Below, piece by piece: positions 22,537 to 43,732 of a stretch of DNA of 55,279 nucleotides. Below the pieces are notes generated by a model. It saw only the letters and a list, made by a program, of their open reading frames with translations, had not been told where the DNA came from and ran no database searches. A program made the position numbers and the translations under genes. Numbering within the stretch: position 1 is the first letter of the stretch; each line of letters begins with the position of its first letter. The stretch comes from an uncultured Chthonomonas sp. (GTDB taxonomy: Bacteria > Armatimonadota > Chthonomonadetes > Chthonomonadales > CAJBBX01): contig CAJBBX010000078.1 of the NCBI GenBank assembly GCA_903951425.1, positions 1-55,279 on the forward strand, written 5' to 3'.

Positions 22537-25434
22537 CTACCGTACGATCTGGAACACCCGCGTCTCAGCCGCTTTGGCTCGGAAGCGGATCAGCCGCGTC
22601 CGGGTCTCCTGTGCGCCGGGATCGAAGAGCTCGCGAACCACCATTTCGGACGGCAGGGCGATCGCCCTGTCGCCGGCATCGCGGGCGTGGAGGGCGATGA
22701 GTCCGCGGCCGGCGTAGAGGGCGTCCTCGGTCTCAGAGTAGATGTGCACGCCGGCCAATCGGGCCAGGTTGCGAAGCAGGCCGGGAGGCAAGCCAGGCGA
22801 GAGGCTGCAGACCGAGGTCCAGTGCGGGAATGCCCGAACACTCAGCGCCGCCCCGCCGTCGGGGAAGGTGCCCACGACGCGGGAGGCGTCGGCCACGGTG
22901 AAGCGGGGTCCTGCTGAGAGGTCCGGGCCAAACTCGGTCGGCGATATGCCGAAGACGGGTTCCGTCGTGCGCAGTCCAAGGCAGAGCGGATCGGCGTTCA
23001 AGCGCACGCGGAACGAGCCCGGGGCCGCCGGCTGCAGCCGCTGGCCGATGAGCCCGCAGGCAGCCTCAAGGTCTTCTGCAACCAACCCTTGCCCCGCCGC
23101 GCTGCCGATACCCGCTGTATAGACGAACACGATGACCCGGCCGGAGGACTTGAGGCGATCGATGGCCCGGCGTTGCGATGCCGTGAGGTCAAACGCGTTC
23201 AGCAGGACCACCATGCGCGCGTCGGGCATACGCTCGACGTCCTCCAGCAGGTAGAGCGCCGCTGGGGCGCCGACACGGTTGAGCGCGGCGACCTGCGCCG
23301 TGAGGGCGGGGAACCAGAAGTCGCCCAGCGTCCCGCCGGCCTGCCTCAAGACGCTCCGCTCGCTGAGCAGGACGGCGATCTCGGGCCTGAGCTCGGGGCC
23401 GGGCGGATCGATGAGTGCCTGCTGCCCGAGCCGATTCATCTCGCCGAAGGTCGACATGATGGCGGGATCAGAGAACCAGCCGTCGCCCATGTCGAACCAC
23501 CACTGCCCGGCGCCGCGCGCGCGGACGGCGGAATACTCGCGCTTCAGCACGCCCAGCGTCTGGTCCAGGTCGGCGCACCGTCCCGTGGCGTCCTGCTGGA
23601 GGTGCGTGCGGATGTCCGACTCGTTGAGCCACAGCTTGCCGTGCAGCCGGATCGAGTCGGTCAGCGACATGAACGTGGACGTACCTCCGGGCCCGCGGTC
23701 GGTGTACATGGCCGGGGCGCAAAGGAAGTCCACATCGGGGCAGTCGAGCACGGCCTTGAGCGCCAGGTGCTGGGTCTCCGGCGCCAGGCCGCCATACTGC
23801 GGCGCGTAACCGTAGAAGACGCCGGCGAGCATCTGCCCCTGGGAGGCGACCTTGACGGCGCGGGCCACGCGGACGATGGCTTGCGAGGCCGCTACGGCGT
23901 AAGCCTCGTAGAAGTCCAGCGCCTGGCGGTCGACCGCAGGATCGAGCAACAGGCGCGACACCGCCTCCCGACGGGCTCGGGACGGGACCGACGCCGTGTC
24001 GAGCGTGACGTCCGGCGAGCCCCATGCCGCTGCCAGGGCGGCATCGGTCTTGTAGCGCGTGCGCAGCCAACGGCGGAAGAAGGCGGCGAAGGCCGGCGAG
24101 AAGTCGCCGCGCCGGTTGTCCCAGAGCCCCCAGCTCTGCCACTCGGCCGAGTAGCCGGTACAGAGGTGGAGGCCGATGACCCGGTCGGCAAAGGGACTGC
24201 GCCGAAGGTAGGCCACGAACCGGCGCAGGTCGTCGCAGATCAGGTCCAGCCACTTCCGCGAGGCAAAGGACTGGGGGGCCACGGAGCCGTCATCGTACAC
24301 CACGCGCTCGTCGGGGTTCGCGGCGAGCCACGCGGCGGGCGGCTCAAGCTGGAGCCTCAGGATCACCAGGGCTTCAGGATCGCGCGAGAGCAGCTCCTGC
24401 AGGAGCTGCGCAGGCTCGCCTGCGTCGAACTTGCCGAGCTTCTGGTTTCCCATGCCGCAGCCCACCGTGTAGAGGTGGGCGCCCTGGGCGGCGAACTCGC
24501 CATAGTGGCCTGTGTGGACCCCGAGGAAGGCGAACGGGAAGAGGGGCTTGCCACCGACCGTGAGCGTCGGCGTGCCCCGATGGCTCACCACCTTCGCGAC
24601 CACGGGTACCGGGCAGGGCACCGGGCCCAGCTTTACACTTGCCACAGTATTGTCCCCCTCCTCCCGGCCGATCCACTGGAGGTCGCCCAGTTCGACCGAC
24701 AGGTCATACCGGCCGGCGGGAGTGAAGCGCAAGGGCGGGACCGTACACTCCACGTGCAGGCGCTGTGTACCGGCGGCGGCGGCGCCTTCAGGTACCGGCG
24801 TCACCCTCTGGGACCAGACGACCTTCCGCTCGCGCCGCAGCGCCACCCAGCAGTCGCCCGCAGATGCAGCCGGCGCATCGAACGCGGCCGTTACCGGGCC
24901 GCCGGACCGATCGATGCGAAGGGTCGACGAAACCAAGCGTAGCCGCGGCTCGCCGCTGGGGCGGTACGCGGGATCGGGCACGAACAGGAAGCTGTCGCAG
25001 CCGGTGTTCCACGAGTCAGCCTGATCGAGGCGCAGGACGACGCGCCCGCCGTCGACGGCCCCGAGCTTCTGCCAGCACCATGTGGCGGCGAGCGGCTCCG
25101 TGGTCCCTGCCCAGTGCTCGATGCCGTTCACCATCACTCGATACTGGTAGTGGCCCGGGTAGTGGCCGTTGTCCGTACCGCGGACCCAGAGCGTGTACTT
25201 GCCCGGCGGCAACTCGACGGTGGTCTCCGCAACCTTGTCCGGCTGGTTGCAGCGCAACCACTGCGTGCCGCTTGCCAACGGCTCATCGAGGCGGTACCAC
25301 TCGCACCGAGTGAAGCTCTCAGCCTCGACCACAACAGAGCCGGGCGGGGGCGGCGCGGATCGGCCCACGTCGACCGGGGCAAGACCCAGCCAGACTAACG
25401 CGGTGAGTGCGCCAAGCGCCGGCCACATGATCAT
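22537..25434 (-). CDS. Secreted GH42-like glycoside hydrolase with N-terminal carbohydrate-binding-like domain
   Basis: A 965-residue protein. The signal segment is residues 1-25. Residues about 32-155 look like a CBM6/35-type jelly roll (VVVEAESFTRCEWYRLDEP, then GKYTLWVRGTDN). The catalytic TIM barrel starts near 295 (GGKPLFPFAFLGVHTGHYGE) and carries two conserved acids: Glu431 in TGYSAEWQSWG and Glu605 in LWLNESDIRTHL, probable acid/base and nucleophile. Residues about 690-800 fit a GH42-type trimerisation domain (RMVVLLNAFDLTASQRRAID). The ATG at 25434 overlaps the stop of the upstream GxGYxYP gene (ATGA), so translation is coupled. Substrate unknown; a beta-galactoside is the default guess. 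Confidence 0.72.
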   Translation of the reverse strand: MIMWPALGALTALVWLGLAPVDVGRSAPPPPGSVVVEAESFTRCEWYRLDEPLASGTQWLRCNQPDKVAETTVELPPGKYTLWVRGTDNGHYPGHYQYRVMVNGIEHWAGTTEPLAATWCWQKLGAVDGGRVVLRLDQADSWNTGCDSFLFVPDPAYRPSGEPRLRLVSSTLRIDRSGGPVTAAFDAPAASAGDCWVALRRERKVVWSQRVTPVPEGAAAAGTQRLHVECTVPPLRFTPAGRYDLSVELGDLQWIGREEGDNTVASVKLGPVPCPVPVVAKVVSHRGTPTLTVGGKPLFPFAFLGVHTGHYGEFAAQGAHLYTVGCGMGNQKLGKFDAGEPAQLLQELLSRDPEALVILRLQLEPPAAWLAANPDERVVYDDGSVAPQSFASRKWLDLICDDLRRFVAYLRRSPFADRVIGLHLCTGYSAEWQSWGLWDNRRGDFSPAFAAFFRRWLRTRYKTDAALAAAWGSPDVTLDTASVPSRARREAVSRLLLDPAVDRQALDFYEAYAVAASQAIVRVARAVKVASQGQMLAGVFYGYAPQYGGLAPETQHLALKAVLDCPDVDFLCAPAMYTDRGPGGTSTFMSLTDSIRLHGKLWLNESDIRTHLQQDATGRCADLDQTLGVLKREYSAVRARGAGQWWFDMGDGWFSDPAIMSTFGEMNRLGQQALIDPPGPELRPEIAVLLSERSVLRQAGGTLGDFWFPALTAQVAALNRVGAPAALYLLEDVERMPDARMVVLLNAFDLTASQRRAIDRLKSSGRVIVFVYTAGIGSAAGQGLVAEDLEAACGLIGQRLQPAAPGSFRVRLNADPLCLGLRTTEPVFGISPTEFGPDLSAGPRFTVADASRVVGTFPDGGAALSVRAFPHWTSVCSLSPGLPPGLLRNLARLAGVHIYSETEDALYAGRGLIALHARDAGDRAIALPSEMVVRELFDPGAQETRTRLIRFRAKAAETRVFQIVR

Positions 25435-27185
25435 GGTTTGGCCCCGCCGCCATAGTGCTGCTTGAAGAGGGTAAAGAAGATCGGCAGGCTGACCAGCTCG
25501 ATCTCCTCGTCGGGGTACTTGGCCCTGAAGCCGTCCACAACGGCCTGGATCTGGCTGGGCGTTACCCAGACGCAACGCCAGTAGGTAAAGCCTGGCTCGT
25601 CCGGCTTGCGCGCCTGGACCATGTCGTGGAGCACCCTGACGCTGTAGTCCGTGTTGTTCGGGTCCATGTGGTTGATGAGCCGAACGACGGGCATGCCCTT
25701 CCAGACGTGCGGGTCCGGGTGGCGGCCTTTGCGCTCGTGCATATCGTCCACGATGGTGGCGAAGCCGCCGGGCGAGAACTTGAGGAAGGCGTCCTTCACC
25801 GCCGGCGAGGGCTGGTCCCAGTCCAGCACCATGCCGGAGATGCTCATGTCGGCCTCGCGGTAGAAGCGGAGGTTGTGGCTCACCAGCAACGGCAGGTTCC
25901 CCGGCAGCACACGGTTGGGGTTGATGTAGCCCGCACAACTGGCGTCCGCCACGAAGTGGTCGTTGGGCGTGGCGGTCTGGTAGAAGCTCGAGATGATGTC
26001 GGGGTAGGTCTCCAGCAGGTTCGGGTTGATGCCCCAACTGAGCGGCAGGGCTCCGCGCTTCGGGTCCTCCCAGTTCTTGGGCAGAAAGTGGTAGAGCGGA
26101 TAGGCCGAGTCGTAGTCGGCCATGAGGATCGCGACGTAGTTGGTGTTCCTGAGCTTGGGCGCCGGCGTCGCCGAAGGCTTGGGCTGCTTGAGGGGCTTCC
26201 GCGGCGCGTGGCGGTGGAACGACTGGTTGTAGCAGAACTCGGTGGCGGTGTTCTGGTAGCAGTTGTAGGGCGAGATGAGCCAGACCGTCTGCCACTCGGT
26301 GGGCACGGGATCGTGCTTGCTGACGTGCTCGGGCATGTTGGCGTACTTCCAGAAGCTGAAGAAGCCGGTGAGTTCGGTCATCTGGCGGCCGCGGGCCTGC
26401 TTCTGCGTGGCGGCCAGGATCATCTCGTAGGTAGCGAGATCGGTCCCGAGGGCCTGACCGGGGTCGTCGCCCGGCTTCTCGTCGCCCCAGGGCGACAGGT
26501 CGAAGACGAACGAGCGGTTCATCACGGCCCAGTCACGCACGATGTTGTAGGCGTTCTGCCCGGCAGGGCGGTCGGCAACCGCATCGGTGAAGAGGCTGAG
26601 CCAGTGCGGCGAGCACTTGCCGGTCTCGATGAACTGCCGGACGGCCCACCGGTACGCATCGTTCTTCTTGCTGCCCGTCTCCGCACCTGTGAACATGCCC
26701 CGGAAGTCGCGCAAGACCCGCAGGCCCCAGCGCCGGAGGAACTTGTCCGCCATGGCCGGGCTGAGAACCACCGCGTTCTCGACGCCCGCTGCCGTAGTGG
26801 CAACGTTCACCGTGGCGGGGACCTCGGGATCCCAGATCACGGCGCCCTTCACCTTGGGCTTCGCCAGGGCGAAGACAGCGTCGAGCGTACCGACCCTCAC
26901 CTGCTCACGCCCGTGCAGCCACTGCCCGTCGGCCACCAGTCGATCAAGCCAGTACTTCGGCCGCCCGTAGCCGGGGTTGTCGACATACAGGAGGGGCTGA
27001 GCCCGGTTGATCAAGCCCTGCAGCGAAACCAGCGTCGTGACCTCATCGTACGCCTCGGGGCCCTTGGCATTGGGATCGAGGGCGTAGACGTAGATCGGCG
27101 GACGAACCGTGCCCGGGAGCGCCGAGGCGCGCATGGCCGGCGCACATACGAGCCCTACGAGCAGCGATGCCAGGCAGAGGGTCAT
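25431..27185 (-). CDS. GxGYxYP-family putative glycoside hydrolase, paralogue 1
   Basis: A 584-residue protein. It has a signal peptide (about 1-22), then an N-terminal Rossmann-like part (EVTTLVSLQGLINRAQPLLY) and a C-terminal barrel-like half (TNYVAILMADYDSAYPLYHF, then LPLSWGINPNLLETYPDIIS). These match the two-domain GxGYxYP family, whose activity is unproven but which is usually found in sugar-degradation loci. The family signature is degenerate here: CAGYINP, lacking the first Gly and the second Tyr. The ATG at 27185 follows AGGAGA. It is the first gene of a two-gene operon with the GH42-like gene and is divergent from the helical glycosidase gene at 27383. Another copy lies at 32007. 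Confidence 0.75.
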   Translation of the reverse strand: MTLCLASLLVGLVCAPAMRASALPGTVRPPIYVYALDPNAKGPEAYDEVTTLVSLQGLINRAQPLLYVDNPGYGRPKYWLDRLVADGQWLHGREQVRVGTLDAVFALAKPKVKGAVIWDPEVPATVNVATTAAGVENAVVLSPAMADKFLRRWGLRVLRDFRGMFTGAETGSKKNDAYRWAVRQFIETGKCSPHWLSLFTDAVADRPAGQNAYNIVRDWAVMNRSFVFDLSPWGDEKPGDDPGQALGTDLATYEMILAATQKQARGRQMTELTGFFSFWKYANMPEHVSKHDPVPTEWQTVWLISPYNCYQNTATEFCYNQSFHRHAPRKPLKQPKPSATPAPKLRNTNYVAILMADYDSAYPLYHFLPKNWEDPKRGALPLSWGINPNLLETYPDIISSFYQTATPNDHFVADASCAGYINPNRVLPGNLPLLVSHNLRFYREADMSISGMVLDWDQPSPAVKDAFLKFSPGGFATIVDDMHERKGRHPDPHVWKGMPVVRLINHMDPNNTDYSVRVLHDMVQARKPDEPGFTYWRCVWVTPSQIQAVVDGFRAKYPDEEIELVSLPIFFTLFKQHYGGGAKP

Positions 27186-31201: not shown

Positions 31202-32005
31202 ATGGCAAGCATCGTCCAACGAACCACCTACCATGCCGTCTACGATGAGAGCGTGCTCGACGCGCTCCGCTTCGCCTTGGAGAACGGCTTCTCTGGGGTG
31301 CAGGCGGCCGCCGAGTTGCCGCACCTGTCGCCGTTACTCATGTCGCCCGCGGTGAAGCAGGAGACGGCCGAGTACCGCCGCCGGCACGGACTGCTCCTCT
31401 CGCTGCATGCGCCCGATGACGCCGCGGGCCTCTGCTGCCTGGACCCGGACCTGGACGCCGCGGCATTGACCTACCTGACGCGGCTCTTCAATGCCGCCGA
31501 AGAACTGGGCGTCCACTGCGTGACGCTCCACGTCGGCGCCACGCCGCAGTTCGGCACCGATGAGGCGGAGCCGCGCACGCTGCCTGAGCCGGCGCGGGCC
31601 GCCATGCTCGCCACGCTGGAGGCCAACCTCCGCAGAGTGGCAGGCATGGCCGCGGGCCGCTGCCTGGCCTGCATCGAGAACCAGGGGCTGGACGATGCGA
31701 TGGCATCCCGGCTCCGACCCCTGGTGCGGAAGCACTGGCTCTGGCTCGCCCATGACCTGGCCAAGCCCGACCCCGGTGGCTTCTTCGCGCAGCACGCGTG
31801 GGCGGTGCGGCAGGTACACCTGCACGTGAGGGCCGCGGACGGCCGCTCCCATGCCGCGTTGGGGCCGGGCTGCGAGAGCCTGCTCGCCCACTTCCGGCGG
31901 CTGGAGCAGCACGACGTACGCGAGTACTGCATTGAGGTCCGCCCCCGCGAGCGGGCCCTGGCATCGCTTACCTGGCTTCGCGAAGCCACGGAACAGGAGG
32001 GCTGA
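31202..32005 (+). CDS. Sugar phosphate isomerase/epimerase-like TIM-barrel protein
   Basis: A 267-residue protein of the xylose-isomerase-like/AP-endonuclease-2 fold. Typical stretches are LDALRFALENGFSGVQAAAE (first strand and helix), LLLSLHAPDD, GVHCVTLHVGA, CLACIENQG (Glu as metal ligand), HWLWLAHDLAKPDPGG and VRQVHLHVRAADGRSHAALG. These enzymes interconvert sugars or act on related substrates using a divalent metal. There is no signal peptide, so it is probably cytoplasmic. The ATG at 31202 is chosen because it gives the usual N-terminus; a GTG at 31166, overlapping the upstream gene, is an alternative with its own GAGG site. It lies within a four-gene operon, two bases before the next start. 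Confidence 0.8.
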   Translation: MASIVQRTTYHAVYDESVLDALRFALENGFSGVQAAAELPHLSPLLMSPAVKQETAEYRRRHGLLLSLHAPDDAAGLCCLDPDLDAAALTYLTRLFNAAEELGVHCVTLHVGATPQFGTDEAEPRTLPEPARAAMLATLEANLRRVAGMAAGRCLACIENQGLDDAMASRLRPLVRKHWLWLAHDLAKPDPGGFFAQHAWAVRQVHLHVRAADGRSHAALGPGCESLLAHFRRLEQHDVREYCIEVRPRERALASLTWLREATEQEG

Positions 32006-32006
32006 C

Positions 32007-34085
32007 ATGGGAGCCGCGCTCGGTCTACTCGGCGCTATCTGCGCCATGGCGCCGGTGACACCGGGAGCCGGGAAGGCGCCGATCCTGCACCGGTACTGGC
32101 CCCTCTACCCTCGACCGAAGACGCTCGTGGTCGTCCGCGACGTGCCCGACCGCCAGGCCGGCATGGTGCTGCACACGCTTGCCGGGCTTGTGGCCCGGGA
32201 AGCCTCACGGGGCGGCAGCGAGATGGTCTGGGGCGACCTCGACCATCCGGCCTACCTGCTCTGGCGCCGCGAGATGCTGAAACGAACCGGTGCGAAGGCG
32301 GTGACGCTGCCGCTCTGGGAGGCCGTGAGGCGCGCACGTGCGCGCGGGGTCGTGCGCGGGTACATCCTGTTTCGCTATGACGCCTCCGACCGGCCCTTCC
32401 ACCAGCTCGGTGAGGTAGATGCCTCGGCCAACGTCGCCACGTCGCTCTGCGCCTCGCTCGGGGCGATTGCGGTGCCGGAGGGGCTGGAAGAGACGGCCCG
32501 CGCCAGGGGCCTCCAGCGGCTACTGGACGTGCGCGGCATGACCGAGGAGCAGTGCTTCGAGGCCTACAAGGCGCGCTTCTCGCGCAAGGTCCTGGCCATG
32601 ATCGACCCGAAGGTGCAGGAGTGCCGCGCCGAGGCCGTGGCTACCGGGGCCTTCGTCATGTCACGCGAGGGGCCGCTCTACGAGAAGGCGCTGGCTCGGC
32701 TGGAGCCCGACGCGCCCATCCTTGGCTGGGGCATCGGCGACGAGCGACGGCTCACCGAGCCGAGCACGCGCTGGGGTGCCTTCCAGACCGCGACCAACTG
32801 GTGCCTCAACCTGCCGCCCCTCTCCACCGAGGCGCCCGGCAAGGGCTTCACGGCCCGCAGCCTGCAGCCCCGACCGGCCCGGAGCATCTGGGGCCTGAAG
32901 TGGGAGGACGACGTCCACTACGCCGCTTTCGTCATGTCCGACGGCGACAACGTGCAGTGGCTCATGGGCAATTTCCTCATGGGCGAGAACTCCTGGTGGG
33001 GTAGCCCCGACCGCGGACAGGCGCCCATCGGATGGACCATCTGCAACACGGACCTTGCCCAGGTCTGCCCCTACACGCTGGACTACCTGCGAACGACCGC
33101 CAAGCCCGCCGATGACTTCGTGTTGATGACCGGCGGCTACCTCTATCCGGACCTGTACGGCGCCTCGCGCCCGTCTGCCGGGGCCATGCGAACCCACGCC
33201 TCCCGCATGGCGCCCTACATGGACCTGAGCGGCATCCAGGCGCTCTCGGCCAACTTCACCGAGTGGGAATCGCCGGCCGCGCGCCGCTCCTGCGCCACCA
33301 TGGCCGAGGAGATGCCGGGGCTGGAGGGCATCCTCGCGTTCCAGTACTCACCTTACACGGCCGGCAAGGGCCAGGCATACTGGGTCCGCGGCGCCAAGCG
33401 CGAAGTGCCGGTGGTCTCGGCGCGCTATGCGATCTGGGCTAACTCACCGTTTCCCAATGACGGTGGTCCCGCGCAGGTCGCGGACTGGCTCAACGCCATG
33501 CCCGCCCGAGGCCACGTGGCAACAGAGGAGAGCTTCAGTTGGGTCATCGTCCACGCCTGGTCCTACTTCAAGCCCGGCGCGGCCGGCGGGGCGCCCGAGC
33601 CCGCACTGGGAACCGAGCCCGGCTCCGCCCGGGGCATGGCGCCGGTGGTCTGGACTGCCCAACGACTGCAGCCCCATGTGCGCCTACTCGGCCCAACGGA
33701 CCTGCTGCTGATGGTGCGCCTTCGGCTACGCTCCGCCGAGACGCTGGCGTCTGCGCTGGTCGCTCTCGGGAAGCAGATCTCCGCCCGACCCACGACGGTT
33801 GCCACGCGTGCGTCCTCTGCATCACTGACGGAGGCCCGGGCGCGGCTGGCGGCAGGGGCCTATCGGGAGTGCTTCGAGGCGGGCAAGCGGGCGGCGGCCC
33901 TGCTCAGCGGTCCTGCACCTCAGACGACGTCGGTTCCGCAGGACGGGGTCGCGAGGTCACGAGGCGCAGCAGGAGTTCGCGTTGGTTCGGGTCAAGTAGC
34001 TCCAGCGCGGCCTTCCAGGAGCGCTCCCTCTCATCTTCGGCCAGTTGGTCGGCATCCGGGTCGGGGCCGTTCGGCCGCGCCCTGA
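32007..34085 (+). CDS. GxGYxYP-family putative glycoside hydrolase, paralogue 2
   Basis: A 692-residue protein. Start ATG 32007 follows a GGAGG site and lies one base after the upstream stop. It has a weak signal segment, then the N-terminal domain (RPKTLVVVRDVPDRQAGMVL) and the catalytic-like half with VHYAAFVMSDGDNVQWLMGN and the family signature in nearly full form, TGGYLYP, near residue 380. It is the better-preserved of the two GxGYxYP genes here. The last roughly 60 residues (from about SGPAPQTT) are low in secondary structure, rich in Arg/Pro/Ser, and lie antisense to the end of the convergent gene at 33904. The natural stop may therefore have been lost. Last gene of the operon from 27383. 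Confidence 0.75.
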   Translation: MGAALGLLGAICAMAPVTPGAGKAPILHRYWPLYPRPKTLVVVRDVPDRQAGMVLHTLAGLVAREASRGGSEMVWGDLDHPAYLLWRREMLKRTGAKAVTLPLWEAVRRARARGVVRGYILFRYDASDRPFHQLGEVDASANVATSLCASLGAIAVPEGLEETARARGLQRLLDVRGMTEEQCFEAYKARFSRKVLAMIDPKVQECRAEAVATGAFVMSREGPLYEKALARLEPDAPILGWGIGDERRLTEPSTRWGAFQTATNWCLNLPPLSTEAPGKGFTARSLQPRPARSIWGLKWEDDVHYAAFVMSDGDNVQWLMGNFLMGENSWWGSPDRGQAPIGWTICNTDLAQVCPYTLDYLRTTAKPADDFVLMTGGYLYPDLYGASRPSAGAMRTHASRMAPYMDLSGIQALSANFTEWESPAARRSCATMAEEMPGLEGILAFQYSPYTAGKGQAYWVRGAKREVPVVSARYAIWANSPFPNDGGPAQVADWLNAMPARGHVATEESFSWVIVHAWSYFKPGAAGGAPEPALGTEPGSARGMAPVVWTAQRLQPHVRLLGPTDLLLMVRLRLRSAETLASALVALGKQISARPTTVATRASSASLTEARARLAAGAYRECFEAGKRAAALLSGPAPQTTSVPQDGVARSRGAAGVRVGSGQVAPARPSRSAPSHLRPVGRHPGRGRSAAP

Positions 34086-34503: not shown

Positions 34504-34974
34504 TCAGACGCTGGGGCCAGCCGCATGCGCCTCCAGACGCACGACCCGGCTCAGCCCCTCCCGCACCTCCATCAGAACCGTCCCCAGCCGATTCAGGCCT
34601 GTGCCTGTTGGGCCCGTGCCCCAGTAGCTGTCGTACGGCGAGTCCTCGACCAGCTCCTCATCGCCGGTCCCGAGGAGCAGTGTGCGCAGGTCGGGGTGCA
34701 TCGTGAACTTGGCGGTCACGGCCCGGCGCATCACGTCGTCCTTGACGCTCTCCCAGTCCGTCCTGAGCGGCAGGTCGCGACTCCTGCCCAGCGCGGCGGC
34801 TTCCCTGGGCGTTGCAGCCCGCCGCACCCGTTCGCGGTGCGCGGGGTCGATGAACTTCTGCGCCTGGAAGTAGTGCTCCGTCGTGGGCCAGATCACGCCG
34901 TCCAGGTCGACGGCGTGGCGCGAGAAGTTCGAGAACGCGCCGTATGCTCCGCGCGTTGAGTAGAACCGTATCAT
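34504..34974 (-). CDS. NADAR/YbiA-like N-glycosidase family protein
   Basis: A 156-residue single-domain NADAR protein. Signature stretches are FSNFS (14-18), WPTTEHYFQAQKFID (29-43), WESVKDDVMRRAVTAKF (74-90) and the C-terminal block LLLGTGDEELVEDSPYDSYW with GLNRLG. YbiA-type members cleave N-glycosidic bonds of riboflavin-pathway intermediates, and other NADAR proteins remove ADP-ribose from nucleic acids or act on NAD-derived molecules. The ATG at 34974 has AGGAGG seven bases upstream. It is divergent from the small ORF/SMC-like ATPase pair across a 250-base gap. NADAR genes often occur near phage-defence or ADP-ribosylation systems, which gives this context extra interest. Confidence 0.9.
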   Translation of the reverse strand: MIRFYSTRGAYGAFSNFSRHAVDLDGVIWPTTEHYFQAQKFIDPAHRERVRRAATPREAAALGRSRDLPLRTDWESVKDDVMRRAVTAKFTMHPDLRTLLLGTGDEELVEDSPYDSYWGTGPTGTGLNRLGTVLMEVREGLSRVVRLEAHAAGPSV

Positions 34975-35017
34975 CAAGCATCCTCCTATGATCAGCCGAC
35001 GGGTTGGCCGAACAGAC

Positions 35018-35046
35018 GGTAACCACGGTGCTGATGGCAGGTTACC
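35018..35046. promoter_or_regulatory. Inverted repeat in NADAR/SMC divergent region, possible operator
   Basis: GGTAACC (35018-35024) and GGTTACC (35040-35046) are exact inverted copies separated by 15 bases. It lies in the 250-base gap between the NADAR gene and the SMC-like operon, in a place where one regulator could control both. An overlapping GTGCTG/CAGCAC pair could form an alternative hairpin. No regulator gene is encoded beside it. Confidence 0.35.
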
Positions 35047-35224
35047 AGCACGGCCTGGGCGAGAGCGGGAATGGCTGAGGGGAACCCGTCCATTGCGGGC
35101 AGGCCGGGCCGGTAGCGGTCGCGTACGGCGCATGGAAACAGCCGACGAGAGCGCCCGTGCGACCCAGTCCGCATCAGTGGTAGCATAGGATAGCCGGCCA
35201 TGACCTCACGGGTGGAGGATTACG

Positions 35225-35419
35225 ATGGACGCTGCACAACCTGCCGACGAAGCGCTGGCAACCTCGATCACCGATGCACTGGTGGAAGCGCGGCTCGTAC
35301 CCTCCGGCAAGCGGGCGGCAGTTATGGCTGCACTGGCCATGGGTACAGCCCGCTCCGACCACTGGGTTGCATGGGCCACTGCCGCCCTGCAACATGGATC
35401 GGTACGAGGACCCGAATGA
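35225..35419 (+). CDS. Small helical protein coupled to SMC-like ATPase
   Basis: A 64-residue protein of unknown family, predicted mostly helical (EALATSITDALVEARLVPSG; KRAAVMAALAMGTARSDHWV), without signal peptide or membrane segment. The ATG at 35225 has a GGAGG site, and its TGA overlaps the ATG of the ATPase gene (ATGA), so the two are made together and probably interact. Its size and place resemble the small accessory subunits found before many SMC-like or ABC-type defence ATPases. That is inference from arrangement, not homology. Confidence 0.65.
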   Translation: MDAAQPADEALATSITDALVEARLVPSGKRAAVMAALAMGTARSDHWVAWATAALQHGSVRGPE

Positions 35420-37245
35420 GCTACGGGCTTAGTGGGCTCACGCTGGTCAAGGTCCGCGGCGCCACGTCCCGCACGGATATAAAGTTCGAACCTGATGCCC
35501 ACGTTGTGCTGATCCACGGGGCCAACGGTGCGGGCAAATCGACGATCCTGGACGGCCTTGACATGGTCGCCAACGGACGGTGCGGATCGATCGATGACCG
35601 GGGTTCCGCCACAGTGCGTGAGCATGTGGCCTCCGTCGGTGCGACAGGCAGACAGGTTAGGGTCGACCTAACGACATCGGGCTCCATGTGGACTGCCAGA
35701 TTAGCCGGAAGCCTTGTCAGCGTTGATGGCCCGTCGCCTCGACCGCCTATCTTCGTGCTGCGCCGGTACCGCGTCGCTAGACTGGTCGAGGCCAGGCCGG
35801 CCGAAAGGTACGATGCGCTCAGGTCACTCATCGACGTGGCGGGAGTCGAACGGGCGGAGGCAACGCTCATCACTGCGGCCAACTCAGCGAAGCGCACACT
35901 CGACGCGGCATTGGAGCGTCACGGCGAAGCCGACGCGGCACTCGGCCGGCTCTGGGTTGCGTCGGGCGGCCTCGGCAATGACCACCGCGAGTGGGCGCTC
36001 AGCGTAACCCGTCGACCGGGAACGGACTCCTTACGTGCAGCGGGTCCGCTGCAGGCCCTGCTTGGCGCCCTCGATCACGCGGAAGCGGCGCGAGGCACGG
36101 CATCCGCCGCGCAGAAGGGACTAGCTGCCGCACGGCAGGGGCAGGACCGTGCGCGATCAGCGGCCGCTCAGGCCGCTACGCTCAGCGGTACTGATGCGAT
36201 CGGCCTGGTCGACCTCCTGCGGCAGGCGCAGAGCGCGATGGAGCAGGACGCCGATGCCGAGGTCTGCCCGGTCTGTAGCCAGAGGATAGATCGGGCGACA
36301 CTGCGAACCGCGCTGGCAGAGCGGCTATCGCGACTTGGCACATGGCGAGCTCTCAGCAAGGCCGTTCGCGATGCCGACGAGGCTGCGGGACACGCTGAGG
36401 CCGAGGCGCGACGGGCCGACCAGGAGTTAGTGGCGGCGGTAGATGCACTGGCATGTCTCTGGGAACAGGCGCCGGCCGCAGTACCGCGGCTTGAGGCAAC
36501 GGAAGCCGACACGGGGGCAGCAGATCCGCCGAGCCGCGCACGAACAGCGGCGCTGGGCCTGCTGCAGCAGGCACTGGCAGGCCGGACCCAGCTGGAGCAC
36601 GAACTCGACCGTACGCGGGCGGCCGCCACGCTACGCACTGCGGTCGCCACCCAGTTGGCCCACGTCGAGGAGGCTGAGGAGGCGGCATCCGCACAGGCAG
36701 GCCTGGCCGACCACCTGCGGGCTATGCTCACCATTGTGCAATCCCGCCGAAAAGGCTTCGCACAACAGATGCTGGACCGCGTCGCCGGTGAAACGGCGCG
36801 GCTGTACGAACTGGTTCATCCCGGCGAAGGCGTGGCACTGCAGGCGCTGACGCTTGACCCAGCCCGACGGGGTTCTCTGGTCCACACGACGCAGTTCCAT
36901 GGCGCACACGGCGTGGCGCCGCAGGGCTACCTTAGTGACGGACACATGGACACCCTCGGCCTCTGTCTGTGGCTCGCCGTGGTCAAGGAGACCGGCGGTC
37001 CAAACGCTATCGTAGCCCTGGATGACGTGCTGACCTCGTTGGACGACACCCACCTAGCGCGGCTGGTTGCGATGCTGACCGCCGAGAGCCGGCACTTCAC
37101 CCAGCTCATCGTTACGACGCACCAGCGGGCTTGGCACGACCACGCGAGAAGGGAGACCGCCACCACCGCCGCACGCATGCAGGCCATCGAGCTGCTGCCC
37201 TGGTCGGTCCGCGATGGTGTTCAGGTGCGCATAGAGGCAGCGTAG
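35416..37245 (+). CDS. SMC/Rad50-like ATPase with zinc-hook motif
   Basis: A 609-residue ABC-type ATPase. Walker A is GANGAGKST (35-43), the signature motif is LSDGHMDTLG (506-515), Walker B is AIVALDDV (531-538), with D-loop SLDD (541-544) and switch His in TTHQ (567-570). The middle is a short Ala/Glu-rich coiled coil with a CPVC zinc-hook-like motif at 284-287. This is the Rad50/SMC layout but with arms only about 120-160 residues long, far shorter than Rad50 (about 850-1300 residues in total). It probably binds DNA ends or senses DNA. There is no adjacent Mre11-like nuclease. Leu codons such as TTA and CTA seem more common than in flanking genes, which may indicate transfer. Coupled to the 64-residue ORF. 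Confidence 0.82.
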   Translation: MSYGLSGLTLVKVRGATSRTDIKFEPDAHVVLIHGANGAGKSTILDGLDMVANGRCGSIDDRGSATVREHVASVGATGRQVRVDLTTSGSMWTARLAGSLVSVDGPSPRPPIFVLRRYRVARLVEARPAERYDALRSLIDVAGVERAEATLITAANSAKRTLDAALERHGEADAALGRLWVASGGLGNDHREWALSVTRRPGTDSLRAAGPLQALLGALDHAEAARGTASAAQKGLAAARQGQDRARSAAAQAATLSGTDAIGLVDLLRQAQSAMEQDADAEVCPVCSQRIDRATLRTALAERLSRLGTWRALSKAVRDADEAAGHAEAEARRADQELVAAVDALACLWEQAPAAVPRLEATEADTGAADPPSRARTAALGLLQQALAGRTQLEHELDRTRAAATLRTAVATQLAHVEEAEEAASAQAGLADHLRAMLTIVQSRRKGFAQQMLDRVAGETARLYELVHPGEGVALQALTLDPARRGSLVHTTQFHGAHGVAPQGYLSDGHMDTLGLCLWLAVVKETGGPNAIVALDDVLTSLDDTHLARLVAMLTAESRHFTQLIVTTHQRAWHDHARRETATTAARMQAIELLPWSVRDGVQVRIEAA

Positions 37246-37325: not shown

Positions 37326-39734
37326 ATGGCCCTTCGCTCGCTCCGCAACCTGCTCGTCTTGCTCTCCGCGCCGCTGCTGCTCGCGGCGGCGGGGCGGGGG
37401 GACGTCACCGTCACGGTGCATGACCTGCCGCGGATGTTCATGCTGGATATCGCCAGCAAGGCGGAGACGGCTGTGGTGCAGGCGTTCCTGCGCAAGTACC
37501 CGCATGTGCGGCTGAAGCGCGCGGCGGGGTTGCAGATCGGCGGCGGGTCGAACACGCTGGACATGATCCCGCTCATGCAGATCGCCGGCGATATCGCGCC
37601 CGATGTGCTGTACGTTAACTTCCGCATGAGCGACACCTATGTGGCGTCGGGCTTCCTGCAGCCGCTGGATGAGTACGTGGCGCGCATCCCTGCCGCGGAG
37701 ATGGCCCGGCGGGTACCGCCCTCGATCCGCGACGTCTGCTACCGGCGCGGACCCGACGGCAAGATGCACTGGTACACGCTCCCCACGAGCCGCCTGGTGC
37801 GCGTGCTCTCCTGGCGGCGCGACCTCTTCGCGAAGGCCGGACTCGACCCAGACCGGCCACCGCGCACCTGGGACGAGCTGGAGGCCTTCTCCCGCAAGCT
37901 CTGCAACCCGGCCCAGAACCGCTTCGGCATGTTCTTCATCAAGGGCGACATCTGCTCGTGGGACTTCGCCAACCTGGTCTGGTCGCGCGGCGGCGACATT
38001 GTGACCACCGACGGCAAGGGGCACTGGAAGCCGCTCTTCAACACGCCCGAAGCCGTGGACGCACTGGCGTTCTACGTGCGCATGACCTGCCGATGGTTCA
38101 CCGCGCCCGACGGCAAGCGCTACCGGGGCTCCGCGCTACGCGACACCTACTCCGACCTGACCACGCGCGACGACAAGGCCATGATGTTCAGCTACCTGGA
38201 CAACAGGATGAACATCTACCAGCCCGAGTTGATCGGCTTCGCGCCGGCTCCCTATCCCGAGGGCAAGGGACGGAGCCGATCCGAGATCAACGCCGCCATG
38301 GTGGGCCTCTTCGCCGGGGTCAAAGACCGCGAGCAGGCACGGGCCGCTTTCGACTACATGGCCTATCTGGACAGCGATGAGGCCAACGCCATCCGGGTGA
38401 AGGTCTACATCCAGAACGGCTTCGGCAAGTTCGTGAACCCCGACCTGCTCGAGCGCTTCGGCTACCGCGACTACCTGAAGCAGGCCGACATGGACTGGCT
38501 GAGGGTCTACAAGGACGCCCTCGTCAATGGCCGGTCGGAGCCACACGGCAAGAACTGCTCGGTGGTCTACCGCGAGCTGAGCAAGCCCGTGGAGGAGGCC
38601 ATCAACGATCCGAAGGCGCTGGCCGCGTTGGACCGAGGCGACGAGGAGGCCCTGCACGCCCGCCTGAAGCAGATCCTGGACCGCGCCCAGGCGGAGACCG
38701 CCCGCCGAATGTTCGGCACTATGCCGCCCGAGATGGCACGATCGCGGACGCGGATGGCGTGGGGCTTCCTGGTGCTGGCCTTCTCGGGCTTCGGGGCGGC
38801 GACGCTCTACCTCCTCCGCATGTTCCGCCGCGAGGCGCCCGCGCCCATGCCCGGAGCCGCCCGCCGCATCATGCCCGCCCTGTTGCTGCTGCCGGCGGTG
38901 ACCACGGTAGCGGTGTGGCAGTACACGCCGCTGCTTCGGGGTACGCTCATCGCCTTTCAGGACTACAGCATCATGGGCAACGCCCGGTTCGCCGGCGTCG
39001 CCAACTTCTCCAGCGTGCTCTTCGACCCCGGCTTCTGGCATGCGGCCTCCGTCACACTGCTCTATACCACTCTCTATATGGTGTTCGGTTTCCTGAGCCC
39101 CATCGGCCTGGCCCTGCTGCTCTCCGAAGTACCGCGCGGCAAGGTCTTCTTCCGCACCATCTTCTACCTGCCTGCCATCCTCAGCGGGCTCGTGGTCATC
39201 TTCCTCTGGAAGAGCTTCTACCGTCCCGCCGGGCTCCTCAACGCGCTGCTGGGCGGGCTGGGCATCCACGTCACGGCGAACTGGCTCGACTCCCCTGCCC
39301 TGGCCATGGCCTCGGTGCTGCTGCCGATCATCTGGGCGGGCATGGGCCCCGGCTGCCTCATCTACCTCGCGGCATTCAAGATCATCCCCGAAGAGCTCTA
39401 CGAGGCCGCCGAATTGGAGGGCGCGGGGATGCGGGCCAAGATATGGCACGTCACACTGCCCAGCATCCGGATGCTGATCCGGATCAACGCCATCGGCGCC
39501 TTCATCGGGGCCTTCATGTCCAGCGACATGATCTTCGCCATGACGGGCGGCGGCCCCTACACCCCCTACGGCGCCACCGAGGTGGTGGGCCTGCAGCTCT
39601 TCTACACGGCCTTCCTCTACCTGAAGTTCGGGCTGGCCAACGCCATGGCCTGGGTGCTGGGCTTCATGCTCCTGGGCTTCACACTGCTCCAGCTCAAGAA
39701 CCTGAGCCGTGTGCAGTTCAGGGCGGGAAAGTAG
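37326..39734 (+). CDS. ABC sugar importer: solute-binding protein fused to MalF-like permease
   Basis: An 802-residue fusion. A signal/anchor segment opens the protein (LRNLLVLLSAPLLLAAAG). Residues about 25-470 match family 1 extracellular sugar-binding proteins (IAGDIAPDVLYVNFRMSDTY; WRRDLFAKAGLDPDRPPRTW). A membrane segment at about 477-497 leads to a complete CUT1 permease (about 505-802) with the EAA loop ELYEAAELEGAGMRAKIWHV near 688. The importer would bring in oligosaccharides made by neighbouring glycosidases. Fusion of binding protein and permease is known for some osmolyte and amino-acid importers but is unusual for CUT1 systems. Start ATG 37326 lacks a clear Shine-Dalgarno site; GTG 37287 is an in-frame alternative. 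Four bases separate it from the partner permease. No ATPase gene is nearby. Confidence 0.88.
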   Translation: MALRSLRNLLVLLSAPLLLAAAGRGDVTVTVHDLPRMFMLDIASKAETAVVQAFLRKYPHVRLKRAAGLQIGGGSNTLDMIPLMQIAGDIAPDVLYVNFRMSDTYVASGFLQPLDEYVARIPAAEMARRVPPSIRDVCYRRGPDGKMHWYTLPTSRLVRVLSWRRDLFAKAGLDPDRPPRTWDELEAFSRKLCNPAQNRFGMFFIKGDICSWDFANLVWSRGGDIVTTDGKGHWKPLFNTPEAVDALAFYVRMTCRWFTAPDGKRYRGSALRDTYSDLTTRDDKAMMFSYLDNRMNIYQPELIGFAPAPYPEGKGRSRSEINAAMVGLFAGVKDREQARAAFDYMAYLDSDEANAIRVKVYIQNGFGKFVNPDLLERFGYRDYLKQADMDWLRVYKDALVNGRSEPHGKNCSVVYRELSKPVEEAINDPKALAALDRGDEEALHARLKQILDRAQAETARRMFGTMPPEMARSRTRMAWGFLVLAFSGFGAATLYLLRMFRREAPAPMPGAARRIMPALLLLPAVTTVAVWQYTPLLRGTLIAFQDYSIMGNARFAGVANFSSVLFDPGFWHAASVTLLYTTLYMVFGFLSPIGLALLLSEVPRGKVFFRTIFYLPAILSGLVVIFLWKSFYRPAGLLNALLGGLGIHVTANWLDSPALAMASVLLPIIWAGMGPGCLIYLAAFKIIPEELYEAAELEGAGMRAKIWHVTLPSIRMLIRINAIGAFIGAFMSSDMIFAMTGGGPYTPYGATEVVGLQLFYTAFLYLKFGLANAMAWVLGFMLLGFTLLQLKNLSRVQFRAGK

Positions 39735-39738
39735 AGCC

Positions 39739-41523
39739 ATGCCCATCCTTCCCGCCATCGGCCGCAAGACGCCCAAGGTCAGGCTCGTCATCGCGGCGAT
39801 CTATGCGCTACTGGTCCTGGGCGGCATCACCATGGTCTACCCATTGCTGGTGATGCTCTCCGGCAGCGTGAAGGGCCAGGCCGACACGGAGCAGATGGAC
39901 GCCTTGCCCGAGTTCCTGCTCTCGCCGCGCCTCCGCTTCGCGAGGTTCATGGAGGACCGATACGGGACGCTCACCAACCTGTCGAGCGCCTATGGCCGCG
40001 AGGTGATGCGCTTCCGCGACCTGCCCGAAGCGCCGGGCGGTGAGCAGGTAGCCCTACTGCGCGGGTTCCTCCGTTCGCAGACGGCGGCGCCGGACCACTT
40101 CTACTGGGTGGCCGACGCGGGCAACATCCAGTCGATGCAACTGCGCAACTTCCGGGCGCTACGCGAGGCGCTACGGTCGGAGTGCGGCTCTGTACGCGAG
40201 TTCACCCGCCGCTACGGCCTGCCGATCACCACGTGGAACGACTTCCCCGGCGTGCTGGACAACCCGGCCACGAAGGAGTTCAACTACGAGCGCACCGCCC
40301 TGTACGACCGCTACCTGCGCTTCAAGCGCGCACTGCCTGCCGCCGACCGGGCCTGGGTGAACGTGGACGGGCTCTACGTCCTGGCGCAATCGAAGATGGC
40401 AGGCACCAAGTCTGGCGCCTGGCCGCGGCAGTCCCTCCTTGCCGAGCGAATGCCGCCGGGAGCGGCCGCGAAGCCCTGGGCCGAGTTCGTGAAGCACGGC
40501 CTCAACTGCCTCTTCGTGCGGCTCGACGACGACGGGCTGGCGGGCTTCCGCGCCGACCTGTGGCGCCGGTTCGGCGGCGACGTAGGCAAGATGAACGCCC
40601 TGCTGGAGACGAGCTACTCCTCCTTTGCCGATATCCGCTGCACCCTCGAGGAACTCCGGGACAGTGCCCTCTTCACGGCCTACACGCAGTTCATCACCGA
40701 CCGGTGCCCGCCGGAGCGGCTGCTCGTCGATGCGATGAACACGCGGTACCGGGCCTATGCCGCCGCCCACCAGCCCGATGCTGCCCGTACGGCGCCGCCA
40801 ATCGCCGCCTACGATCACGCGGTCTTCGAGGCGACGCACGGGGCCTGGCTCACGGAGACGCTGACCCGCAACTACCGGATCGTGGTGGGCTACGTCACGG
40901 TCTACGGGCGAGCCGTGCTGAACACGGTGGCGCTCATCGGCCTCAGCGTGCTGGCGGCGTTGCTGGTGAACCCGGCCGCGGCATACGCCCTCTCGCGGTT
41001 CCGGCTCAAAAACACCTACGGCATCCTCATGTTCTTCCTGGCCACCATGGCCTTCCCCGGCGCGGTAACCATGATCCCCAACTTCCTGCTGCTGAAGGAG
41101 CTGCACCTGCTGAACAGCTACTGGGCGCTGGTGCTGCCGGGGCTGGCCAACGGGTTCAACATCTTCATCCTCAAGGGATTCTTCGACAGCATCCCGCAGG
41201 AGATGTACGAGAGCGCCATGCTCGACGGCGCCGGCGAGTGGGTAATGTTCTGGCGCTTCACCATGGCGCTGAGTACGCCGGTGCTGGCGCTCACCGCGCT
41301 GGGGGCCTTCACGTCAGCCTACAGCGCCTTCATGTTCGCGCTGATCATCTGCCCGGACGAGAGGATGTGGACCATCATGGTCTGGCTCTACCAGCTCCAG
41401 CAGACGGCGCACCAGAGCGTTGTCTTCGCCGCCCTGGTGCTCGCCGCGCTGCCTACGCTGCTCGTCTTCGTGCTGGCCCAGCGGGTCATCATGCAGGGCA
41501 TCGTGGTGCCCATCGAGAAGTAG
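39739..41523 (+). CDS. MalG-like ABC sugar permease with ~330-residue insertion
   Basis: A 594-residue permease, about twice the usual 280. Membrane segment 1 is at about 16-40 (IYALLVLGGITMVYPLLVML). Residues about 45-385 form a soluble, helix-rich insertion, presumably on the outside, with stretches such as EFTRRYGLPITTWNDFPGVL and EFVKHGLNCLFVRLDDDGL. A standard MalG core follows (TVALIGLSVLAALLVNPAAA; AYALSRF) with the EAA loop PQEMYESAMLDGAGEWVMFW. It pairs with the fused permease just upstream (four-base gap). The insertion may bind substrate or dock to the tethered binding domain. I do not recognise it as a known domain. Confidence 0.88.
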   Translation: MPILPAIGRKTPKVRLVIAAIYALLVLGGITMVYPLLVMLSGSVKGQADTEQMDALPEFLLSPRLRFARFMEDRYGTLTNLSSAYGREVMRFRDLPEAPGGEQVALLRGFLRSQTAAPDHFYWVADAGNIQSMQLRNFRALREALRSECGSVREFTRRYGLPITTWNDFPGVLDNPATKEFNYERTALYDRYLRFKRALPAADRAWVNVDGLYVLAQSKMAGTKSGAWPRQSLLAERMPPGAAAKPWAEFVKHGLNCLFVRLDDDGLAGFRADLWRRFGGDVGKMNALLETSYSSFADIRCTLEELRDSALFTAYTQFITDRCPPERLLVDAMNTRYRAYAAAHQPDAARTAPPIAAYDHAVFEATHGAWLTETLTRNYRIVVGYVTVYGRAVLNTVALIGLSVLAALLVNPAAAYALSRFRLKNTYGILMFFLATMAFPGAVTMIPNFLLLKELHLLNSYWALVLPGLANGFNIFILKGFFDSIPQEMYESAMLDGAGEWVMFWRFTMALSTPVLALTALGAFTSAYSAFMFALIICPDERMWTIMVWLYQLQQTAHQSVVFAALVLAALPTLLVFVLAQRVIMQGIVVPIEK

Positions 41524-41623
41524 CGGAACCCGCCCGGCGGATAGCGCGTACGTACTACCTGTGACCCGCCATTAAGGCACCTGCGTACCGTGCGCATCTG
41601 CGGGCCACAGGGAGCACGATGTG

Positions 41624-43732
41624 ATGAACCGCTTTGCCCTCACTCTACCGGCAGCTCTGGCCATCCTGATGGTCTGGCTACCCGGTTCCGCGAATGCACA
41701 GCTTGCCCTATTAGTTTCCGTTAAGACAGCCGCAGCCGACGTGATCGTCGTAGAGGCTGAGACCGCACCGGGCGCCGTAGCCCCGTCACAAGCGCCTGCC
41801 GACTGGGCCGTGGACGGCGTGCCCCCGTTGGCCGTCGGCCGCGGCTCAGTTCCCTCCAAGCAGGCGATCAATCTCGGCGCGTTCTATCCTGTGACGATGC
41901 TTCACTCGTACTACCTGGTCCTGCCCAATCAGCTCGCCGTCGGCAAGACCTACACGATCCGAACACCATTCGGCAAGACCACTCTGGCGTTCAGTGACAG
42001 CACGACCGCCTGCGAGAGCCTGAAGGTTAACCAGGAGGGCTACTGGCCGCGGGGCCGAGCACGCTATGCGGTGTTCGGGGCGTTCCTCGGCGACCTCGGC
42101 TCGCGCAGGCTTCCCGGGCCTCCCATGTACAGGGTGCGCTCACTGGTGACAGGACAGGACGTGGTCCGCGGTATAGCGACGTACTGGGGCGACGACACCC
42201 CGTCGCGCAAAGTAGGCACAGGCGAGCATGTCTATCGTCTTAACCTTGCGCAGACCCCGGTTGGCGGCCCCTACATCGTCATCGCGGACGGTATCGGCCG
42301 CTCGCACCCCTTCAGCGTCAACCCAGCAACCACCGAGCGGATTTCGTTCGTCCACACGCGAGGCCTCTACCACCAGCGATGCGGCAGCGCGGTTGACCCG
42401 GAGCACTCCGATCACCCAAGGGCCATCGGTCCCGCACATCTGGTTGCCTATGATACCGATGTAACGAACCACTACGCCTTCCTGTCGGCGACAACTCTGG
42501 GTCCGGCGCGAGCCATGCGCGGCGGCTACCACGACGCCGGTGACTTTGACCGCCAGCTTACCAACATGCAGGTGCCGTCCTGGATGCTGAACCTGTACGA
42601 GGCGTTCCCGGCCCGTTTCACCGATGGGCAGTACGATCTGCCGGAGTCGGGCAACGGCATCCCCGACTGGCTCGATGAGGCGCTCTGGGGTGTTGCCCTG
42701 TGGGAGTCCCTGCACGATCCAGACGGCGCGGTCCGCGGCGGTGTCGAGGCGCAGCGCCACCCGACATACGGGCAGGTGGACGCGGCCAGTGACAATCTCA
42801 TCTATCGCACGTACGGCAAGGACGCACCGGCAACGGCCATGTCAGCCGGGCTCTTCGCCCACGCAGCACGCCTGCTGGAGCCGTTCGACAAATCCCGCGC
42901 CGACCAGCTTCTCGAGAGGGCCCGGCGGGCATGGGGCTGGCTTCAGGTAGGCCCCCAGACGGAACTGAAGCCTGCGCATCGGATGTACGCGGCGCTGCAG
43001 CTCTACCTGGCCACCGGCCTGCCCGAGTACCACGACGCATTCCTCGCCACGGCTCGGTTCCTCGTCACCAATACGGCCTGGCCGGAGGTCTACAACCCGC
43101 GCTACTGGAACTTCAGCTCGCTGCACGGCGGCCAGGTCATGGCGCCCTACTTCTTCGCCTACCTGATCACTAACCGGCCCGTCGACGCAACGGTTCAGGC
43201 AGGGTTCCGCAAGATCCTGAACCAGCGTGCCAACGAAGTCCTGACCAACGTGGCCGCCATGCCCTACCCCATCGGCCCCGTGGGCGGCCTCGGGTACGGC
43301 GCCGGCACCAACCAGGGCCGTTACGCCGAGCCCCTAATCCTCCAGTACCGGCTGACGCCCGACCTGAAGTACACCGACGCCGTGAGCCAGATGGCCGATT
43401 ACACGCTGGGCCTGAACCCGCTGGGGCAGTGCTATGTGACCGGTCTGGGCGCACACTCGCCGTCGTCCATCTGCCACTTGGATTCGTACCTTCCCACGCT
43501 GGCGGGCAAGGCGCCGGTGCCGGGAATCGTCGTCTACGGCCCGTCGGCTGACGCCAGCGGTGCGGCCTACCAGAAGGCCGTCTGGTCGCAGGTCTACCCC
43601 GGCTGGTACTCGCTGCCCGAGCAGCGGCGCTACTGCGACGGCTGGTCGCTGATCAATAGCAACGAGTTCACCGTCCACGAGACCATGGCGCTGAACATCT
43701 GCATGTACGCGTTCCTGGCCGGCCACAAGTAG
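41624..43732 (+). CDS. Secreted GH9-family glycoside hydrolase with N-terminal Ig-like domain
   Basis: A 702-residue protein with signal peptide (MNRFALTLPAALAILMVWLP, cleaved near ANAQ). Residues about 140-240 match the CelD-type Ig-like domain (LKVNQEGYWPRGRARYAVF). The GH9 (alpha/alpha)6 barrel carries GGYHDAGDFDRQ with base Asp304/307 and NSNEFTVHETM with acid Glu681. GH9 enzymes hydrolyse beta-1,4-glucans, and some release glucosamine or other beta-linked sugars. GTG 41621 directly precedes the ATG and could also be used; GGGAG lies about ten bases upstream. It follows the importer genes by 100 bases, so cello- or related oligosaccharides could be the importer's cargo. Confidence 0.9.
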   Translation: MNRFALTLPAALAILMVWLPGSANAQLALLVSVKTAAADVIVVEAETAPGAVAPSQAPADWAVDGVPPLAVGRGSVPSKQAINLGAFYPVTMLHSYYLVLPNQLAVGKTYTIRTPFGKTTLAFSDSTTACESLKVNQEGYWPRGRARYAVFGAFLGDLGSRRLPGPPMYRVRSLVTGQDVVRGIATYWGDDTPSRKVGTGEHVYRLNLAQTPVGGPYIVIADGIGRSHPFSVNPATTERISFVHTRGLYHQRCGSAVDPEHSDHPRAIGPAHLVAYDTDVTNHYAFLSATTLGPARAMRGGYHDAGDFDRQLTNMQVPSWMLNLYEAFPARFTDGQYDLPESGNGIPDWLDEALWGVALWESLHDPDGAVRGGVEAQRHPTYGQVDAASDNLIYRTYGKDAPATAMSAGLFAHAARLLEPFDKSRADQLLERARRAWGWLQVGPQTELKPAHRMYAALQLYLATGLPEYHDAFLATARFLVTNTAWPEVYNPRYWNFSSLHGGQVMAPYFFAYLITNRPVDATVQAGFRKILNQRANEVLTNVAAMPYPIGPVGGLGYGAGTNQGRYAEPLILQYRLTPDLKYTDAVSQMADYTLGLNPLGQCYVTGLGAHSPSSICHLDSYLPTLAGKAPVPGIVVYGPSADASGAAYQKAVWSQVYPGWYSLPEQRRYCDGWSLINSNEFTVHETMALNICMYAFLAGHK

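Follow-up and report, generated by a model that had tools for sequence, protein, structure and literature searches.

In most descriptions of sugar ABC importers, the solute-binding protein (SBP) is free or lipid-anchored and present in excess. The maltose importer MalFGK2-MalE (CUT1, TC 3.A.1.1) combines an SBP fold with two different permeases, each carrying an EAA loop, and a separate MalK-type ATPase with an OB domain; the system described here resembles it in the first two and probably in the third. It differs from the E. coli importer in that the SBP is free in E. coli and fused to a permease here, and in that the P2 loop of E. coli is on MalF, whereas here MalG carries an array of repeats which seems to be derived from a glycosidase.

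There are precedents for binding proteins that are attached to their permeases. PDB entry 6ffl shows a MalE domain from a Bdellovibrio bacteriovorus chain named maltose/maltodextrin transport permease homologue, and Licht et al. 2019 reportedly described this MalE domain as fused to MalF. Compared by its PDB entry, it is, as here, a CUT1 SBP built into a permease chain as one of its domains, which gives fusions in CUT1 importers a precedent. In OpuA (glycine betaine), an anchoring helix and a short linker give the binding domain (SBD) an apparent concentration of about 4 mM (PMC11065425), and in GlnPQ (glutamine) a short linker ties the SBD covalently to the permease (PMC8025302). Free SBPs are usually in excess over the transporter (PMC9045158). 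The system described here shares the covalent attachment with OpuA and GlnPQ, but these belong to other importer families and carry two or more SBDs per transporter (two in OpuA), whereas here a MalF/MalG pair would carry one SBP. The permease does not come from one gene, as in osmolyte and amino-acid importers; its best matches are UgpA/MalF and UgpE/MalG, in two genes. Given OpuA, GlnPQ and 6ffl, the fusion as such is not new. The literature searched, which had most subscription papers outside its scope and included some poorly aimed queries, gave no description of the MalG arm or of CUT1 fusions, and within it the combination of a tethered CUT1 SBP with a glycosidase-derived MalG arm was not found before.

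Binding protein and permease in one chain

The window is the whole stretch of DNA that was analysed, 55,279 nucleotides from an uncultured Chthonomonas sp. Judged by sequence and structural model, the product of one of its genes is a CUT1-type SBP and a MalF-type permease in one chain, predicted to be joined via a membrane helix (Table 1). The earlier note had read an SBP, a membrane segment and a full MalF-like permease in a single frame, with the junction at about residues 465-515, and the open reading frame, the domain searches and the model agree with it on both points.

Pfam's SBP_bac_1 covers residues 47-346 of the fused protein with an E-value of 1.6e-22, and VIA aligned the SBP part to 5ci5 with a Z of 35 over 366 residues, sugar SBPs overall giving Z of 28-35. 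BPD_transp_1 matches residues 605-787 at 25.7 bits, slightly below the Pfam cut-off of 26.4, and the UgpA, GlcT and MalF profiles and solved permeases (SugA-type, AlgM1, MalF) align inside residues 509-796. The fused protein has the sugar-type SBP of CUT1 importers (TC 3.A.1.1), and together with its partner it supplies the two different permeases of that class, MalF-type and MalG-type, with EAA loops, the loop of the window's MalG being degenerate at its end. The loop of the MalF domain, YEAAELEGAGMRAKIWHVTLP, is presumably the expected contact to the ATPase.

In the model of the fused protein predicted by AlphaFold (mean pLDDT 80), as in the hydropathy profile, the SBP fold extends to about residue 465 and is followed by the tether helix, with a hydrophobic core at 479-497, and then by the permease helices. 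The SBP's C-terminal helix passes into this single membrane helix within about five residues. Because the SBP must be outside and the first permease helix must start inside, the tether helix would solve the topology of the chain, and the basic stretch after it, RMFRREAPAPMPGAARR, as read from the sequence, agrees with the positive-inside rule. A hydrophobic segment precedes the permease in all fused proteins tabulated, and the window's is among the weakest. A lipobox scan of the signal segment found no lipobox cysteine.

Table 1. Features of the fused gene, its partner MalG and the adjoining hydrolase gene, in window positions.
Feature	Residues	Position	Strand	Basis
Fused SBP-permease gene	802 aa	37326..39734	+	ATG 37326, stop 39732-39734; intact ORF
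Signal segment	1-25	37326..37400	+	hydropathy; lipobox scan
Sugar-type SBP domain	26-465	37401..38720	+	SBP_bac_1 match 47-346; model
Tether helix, predicted single membrane span	468-502	38727..38831	+	hydropathy, AlphaFold model
MalF/UgpA-like permease domain	511-802	38856..39731	+	Pfam, NCBIfam, PDB searches
EAA loop of MalF domain	692-712	39399..39461	+	sequence; conserved among relatives
Partner permease MalG	594 aa	39739..41523	+	begins four bases past fused stop codon
MalG TM1	12-42	39772..39864	+	sequence/model
Extracytoplasmic insert TM1-TM2, GH42-related repeat array	~46-355	39874..40803	+	profile, model
Repeat copy	62-96	39922..40026	+	repeat profile, iE 5e-08
Repeat copy, weak	142-169	40162..40245	+	repeat profile, iE 0.04
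Repeat copy, best	247-300	40477..40638	+	repeat profile, iE 1e-15
Repeat copy, partial	315-341	40681..40761	+	repeat profile, iE 1e-04
MalG core	361-594	40819..41520	+	BPD_transp_1 428-586; VIA Z about 19 to MalG/AlgM2
GH9-family hydrolase adjoining transporter; possible functional neighbour		41621..43732	+	retained in both congeners

In the usual operon an SBP gene precedes malF, and a lost stop codon could give such a fusion, so that an assembly or sequencing artefact might have united two adjacent genes; the earlier note had named such an error as fatal to its reading. However, two congeners (G001 and G002) have the identical uninterrupted frame, free of stops, at 97% identity, and the fused gene is carried by about 140 Armatimonadota genomes and, in the phylum to which a Lentisphaerae bin belongs, by 99 of 288. 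The junction also holds an extra membrane helix, which a lost stop would not make. Against the congeners, dN/dS (Nei-Gojobori) is 0.05-0.09 in the SBP, 0.07-0.11 in the 45-residue junction and 0.04-0.05 in the permease; every segment of the gene, the junction included, is under purifying selection. The congeners and the junction values exclude a sequencing error, and with the phylum survey they led us to discard the artefact, to which we give next to no probability. The fused gene is taken as genuine below.

A single OB_MalK ATPase gene was found in the genome (382 aa, at G000:C188), unlinked to the window, alongside 13 SBP_bac_1 matches. Because only one MalK-type gene was found, its ATPase is probably common to this and other CUT1 importers, and most likely it powers the fused importer and is common to the 13 SBP_bac_1 systems. 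In a Delongbacteria member, a MalK gene lies immediately upstream of the fused system.

The repeat array of the partner MalG

The repeat arm of the partner MalG, which the earlier note had overlooked, is more distinctive than the fusion. Known MalG topology puts the loop between TM1 and TM2 outside, and in the window's MalG about 310 residues separate these two helices. The array in this loop has a repeat unit of ~57 residues with the consensus DWLEFVREELPLEFIRLDPLDLRAFRKFLEKKYGGDIEALNKAYGTDYKSFEEVRLP. Its motif was spotted by eye, and a profile was made from seven seed units taken from relatives and iterated; because the seed was chosen by eye, Pfam serves as an independent test. The repeat profile matches the window's MalG four times (one strong match, one clear, two weak or partial). 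Most array MalGs carry three to eight copies, and those of Fimbriimonadaceae one or two that are detectable. Pfam's Glyco_hydro_42 (PF02449) matches 11 of 14 array MalGs, the best at 1e-20 and with up to four stretches in one protein. The window's MalG itself has no Pfam GH42 match, and its link to GH42 rests on the family and on the repeat-profile matches.

The best GH42 stretches in the array MalGs lie within positions 135-286 of the 376 in the profile, and the repeat corresponds to about 148-209 of PF02449. In the reverse search, the repeat profile gave a single match in each of the GH42-like enzymes that it found in the same genome, the best at 6e-09. The match in the GH42-like enzymes L193, L194 and L196 begins 13-24 residues after an N-E pair, which we take to resemble the acid/base motif of GH42-like enzymes; no N-E pair was found before the repeats in the congeners' MalGs. 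In comparison with GH42 beta-galactosidases and related enzymes, where one domain segment resembles the repeat, the array is without the rest of the barrel and without catalytic residues, and a complete barrel with acid/base and nucleophile glutamates was not found in it. By sequence homology to the GH42 domain, the MalG array is related to a part of GH42-type glycosidases that is not catalytic, and since only a GH42 fragment matched, enzymatic activity is not expected of it. In the model the array is mostly helical, with short helices and occasional short strands; Foldseek and VIA match lists for this model were filled by the permease core.

The EAA loop of the window's MalG ends in FTMA instead of the ITxP or similar sequence found in relatives, and this might change the coupling.

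Spread and joint inheritance

In a survey of 291 Armatimonadota genomes from 156 genera, a profile built on fused proteins matched 162 genomes and 94 genera at E 1e-80. Clear members of the window's fused lineage (best E below about 1e-120, a cut chosen after a gap in the scores was seen) are in 142 of the 291 genomes. A second, independent fused SBP-MalF lineage, whose protein shares about 30% identity with the one encoded in the window, occurs in 172, and 205 genomes carry one or both. The earlier note had thought the fused layout unusual for a CUT1 importer, and had named a fusion standard in the phylum as evidence against its reading; within Armatimonadota the fusion is standard by these counts, and 6ffl is a CUT1 precedent.

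The window's own genome carries both lineages, the second at G000:C127 (L044); L033, L048 and L049 are further members of the second. Repeat-profile searches found no GH42-type repeats in the second lineage's MalGs, which bear another insert, and the idea that it shares the arm was dismissed. Several of its members (L034, L044, L046 and L049) carry a lipobox-like cysteine, which may give them a second anchor. A single origin for all CUT1 fusions was likewise unsupported: the second lineage and a case from Ignavibacteriae nest among unfused permeases. The latter (L067:6791-10434, an Ignavibacteriae bin) is a separate SBP-MalF fusion beside an ordinary MalG of 272 residues, a further fusion event.

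The pair of fused MalF and array MalG recurs in Verrucomicrobiota/Lentisphaerota, Hydrogenedentota, Omnitrophota and others, and in the phylum of a Hydrogenedentota bin 4 of 68 genomes have the fused gene. Thirty genomes chosen through unfused loci, most of them from other phyla, gave a single match, which bears two in-frame stops; it is from Paenibacillus agaridevorans, where SBP and MalF are separate genes. A few entries stand apart. In the phylum of the Lentisphaerae bin, one fused gene appears as two overlapping pieces in different frames (G571:C204:548-3054), either a frameshift or a real split. MalF and MalG are apparently one ORF of 653 residues in a Candidate division WS1 bin (L109:1507-3468). 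The locus titled Actinomycetota bacterium F1-80-MAGs030 (L051) has contig coordinates equal to those of an Armatimonadota genome (G226), and the title is probably a mislabel.

Among the named loci, an array MalG directly follows the fused gene in 14 of the 15 members of the window's lineage; the exception (L055) has no MalG beside the fused gene and an oppositely oriented gene there. Unfused systems of the same set have MalGs without repeats. Across the 291 Armatimonadota genomes, both traits are present in 137 and neither in 139, with the array only in 10 and the fused gene only in 5, and all 15 one-sided genomes are at most 92% complete. Fisher's p for co-occurrence is 3e-63, which is overstated because the genomes are related and each trait is one clade. 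On quick trees the fused MalF domains of the window's lineage form one clade (SH-aLRT 99) and so do the array-bearing MalGs (SH-aLRT 99), so the pair is one old unit retained together. The two genes are often unlinked, lying apart in Fimbriimonadaceae and some others, and that the pair is retained even where they are not neighbours speaks for a shared function. On the MalF tree, the closest unfused relative (L020/L182) encodes SBP and MalF as separate genes and has a 340-residue MalG without repeats, and by this comparison the fusion and the array were probably both gained on the stem of the window's clade.

Flanking genes say little about the substrate. Synteny with GH9, GH127 and fucosidase genes was seen only within the genus, and the flanking genes sampled in other lineages had no family in common, so a conserved catabolic operon was dismissed as a substrate clue. 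Near the GH9, GH127 and fucosidase genes of the window are two GxGYxYP putative glycoside hydrolase genes, at 25431-27185 (-) and 31851-34085 (+). Upstream of the fused gene, at 34504-37245, genes for a NADAR-domain protein and a RecF/SMC-like ATPase give weak PADLOC matches; the gap between the genes flanking this pair is about 3.2 kb here versus 0.6-0.9 kb in the congeners, and the pair is possibly an inserted defence module.

How the importer may work

We regard as quite probable a CUT1-type importer, like the maltose and UgpAE systems, with one tethered SBP, a MalK common with other systems and a periplasmic arm. By sequence and model, the signal segment exports the SBP, the tether helix returns the chain to the cytoplasm, and a normal MalF permease follows; the partner MalG has a normal core. 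Fused MalF and MalG would form one heterodimer; with one MalF and one MalG per transporter, each would have exactly one SBP. Unable to leave, the SBP would remain locally concentrated above the channel, in the manner of OpuA and GlnPQ, close on an oligosaccharide and dock at once, and ATP hydrolysis would move the sugar in. By analogy with OpuA, it is plausible that tethering improves the local capture of scarce oligosaccharides. The array of MalG might be a periplasmic arm which positions the tethered SBP or keeps glycans near, and which could perhaps offset the lost reach of a free SBP pool.

The fused protein could instead be a membrane sugar sensor that has lost transport, as the lack of conserved catabolic neighbours and the degenerate end of the window MalG's EAA loop might suggest, but the two permease cores and the EAA loop of MalF are conserved under strong purifying selection, and one member has a MalK gene next to the system. 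A sensor is very improbable, and we keep to the importer.

Several roles are conceivable for the arm. The array of MalG has a dN/dS (Nei-Gojobori) of 0.15-0.25 against 0.05-0.07 in the core, so it changes about three times faster and is still constrained. It might be a docking clamp for the SBP, as the MalF P2 loop is for the maltose-binding protein of E. coli: it is inherited together with a tethered SBP and, by MalG topology, is on the docking-face side of the membrane. However, it outpaces the SBP and permease cores in evolution and varies in copy number, unlike a precise interface, and we hold the clamp to be a doubtful reading. The array might also bind glycans, or reach to the peptidoglycan or outer membrane, and feed oligosaccharides to the tethered SBP. 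Its homology to a glycosidase segment points this way, variable length and faster change would suit variable ligands, and a tethered SBP is unable to shuttle; but the matched piece of GH42 lies outside the catalytic part and a glycan site is putative, so this reading is as doubtful as the clamp. Faster change and variable copy number suit a loosely held arm more than a clamp of precise fit, and for now a reaching or positioning arm seems no less likely than a tight clamp.

It is possible, if speculative, that these importers form a subclass in which a tethered SBP replaces the free pool and a glycosidase-derived arm gathers or guides glycans, as one unit across several phyla. A widespread lineage in which one SBP per transporter is fixed, and coupled to an outside domain made of glycosidase pieces, would be a natural test of the purpose of SBP excess. 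It would also be a case of a transporter that has taken over part of an enzyme as a repeat module, and may allow better annotation of proteins which match only generic SBP and permease models.
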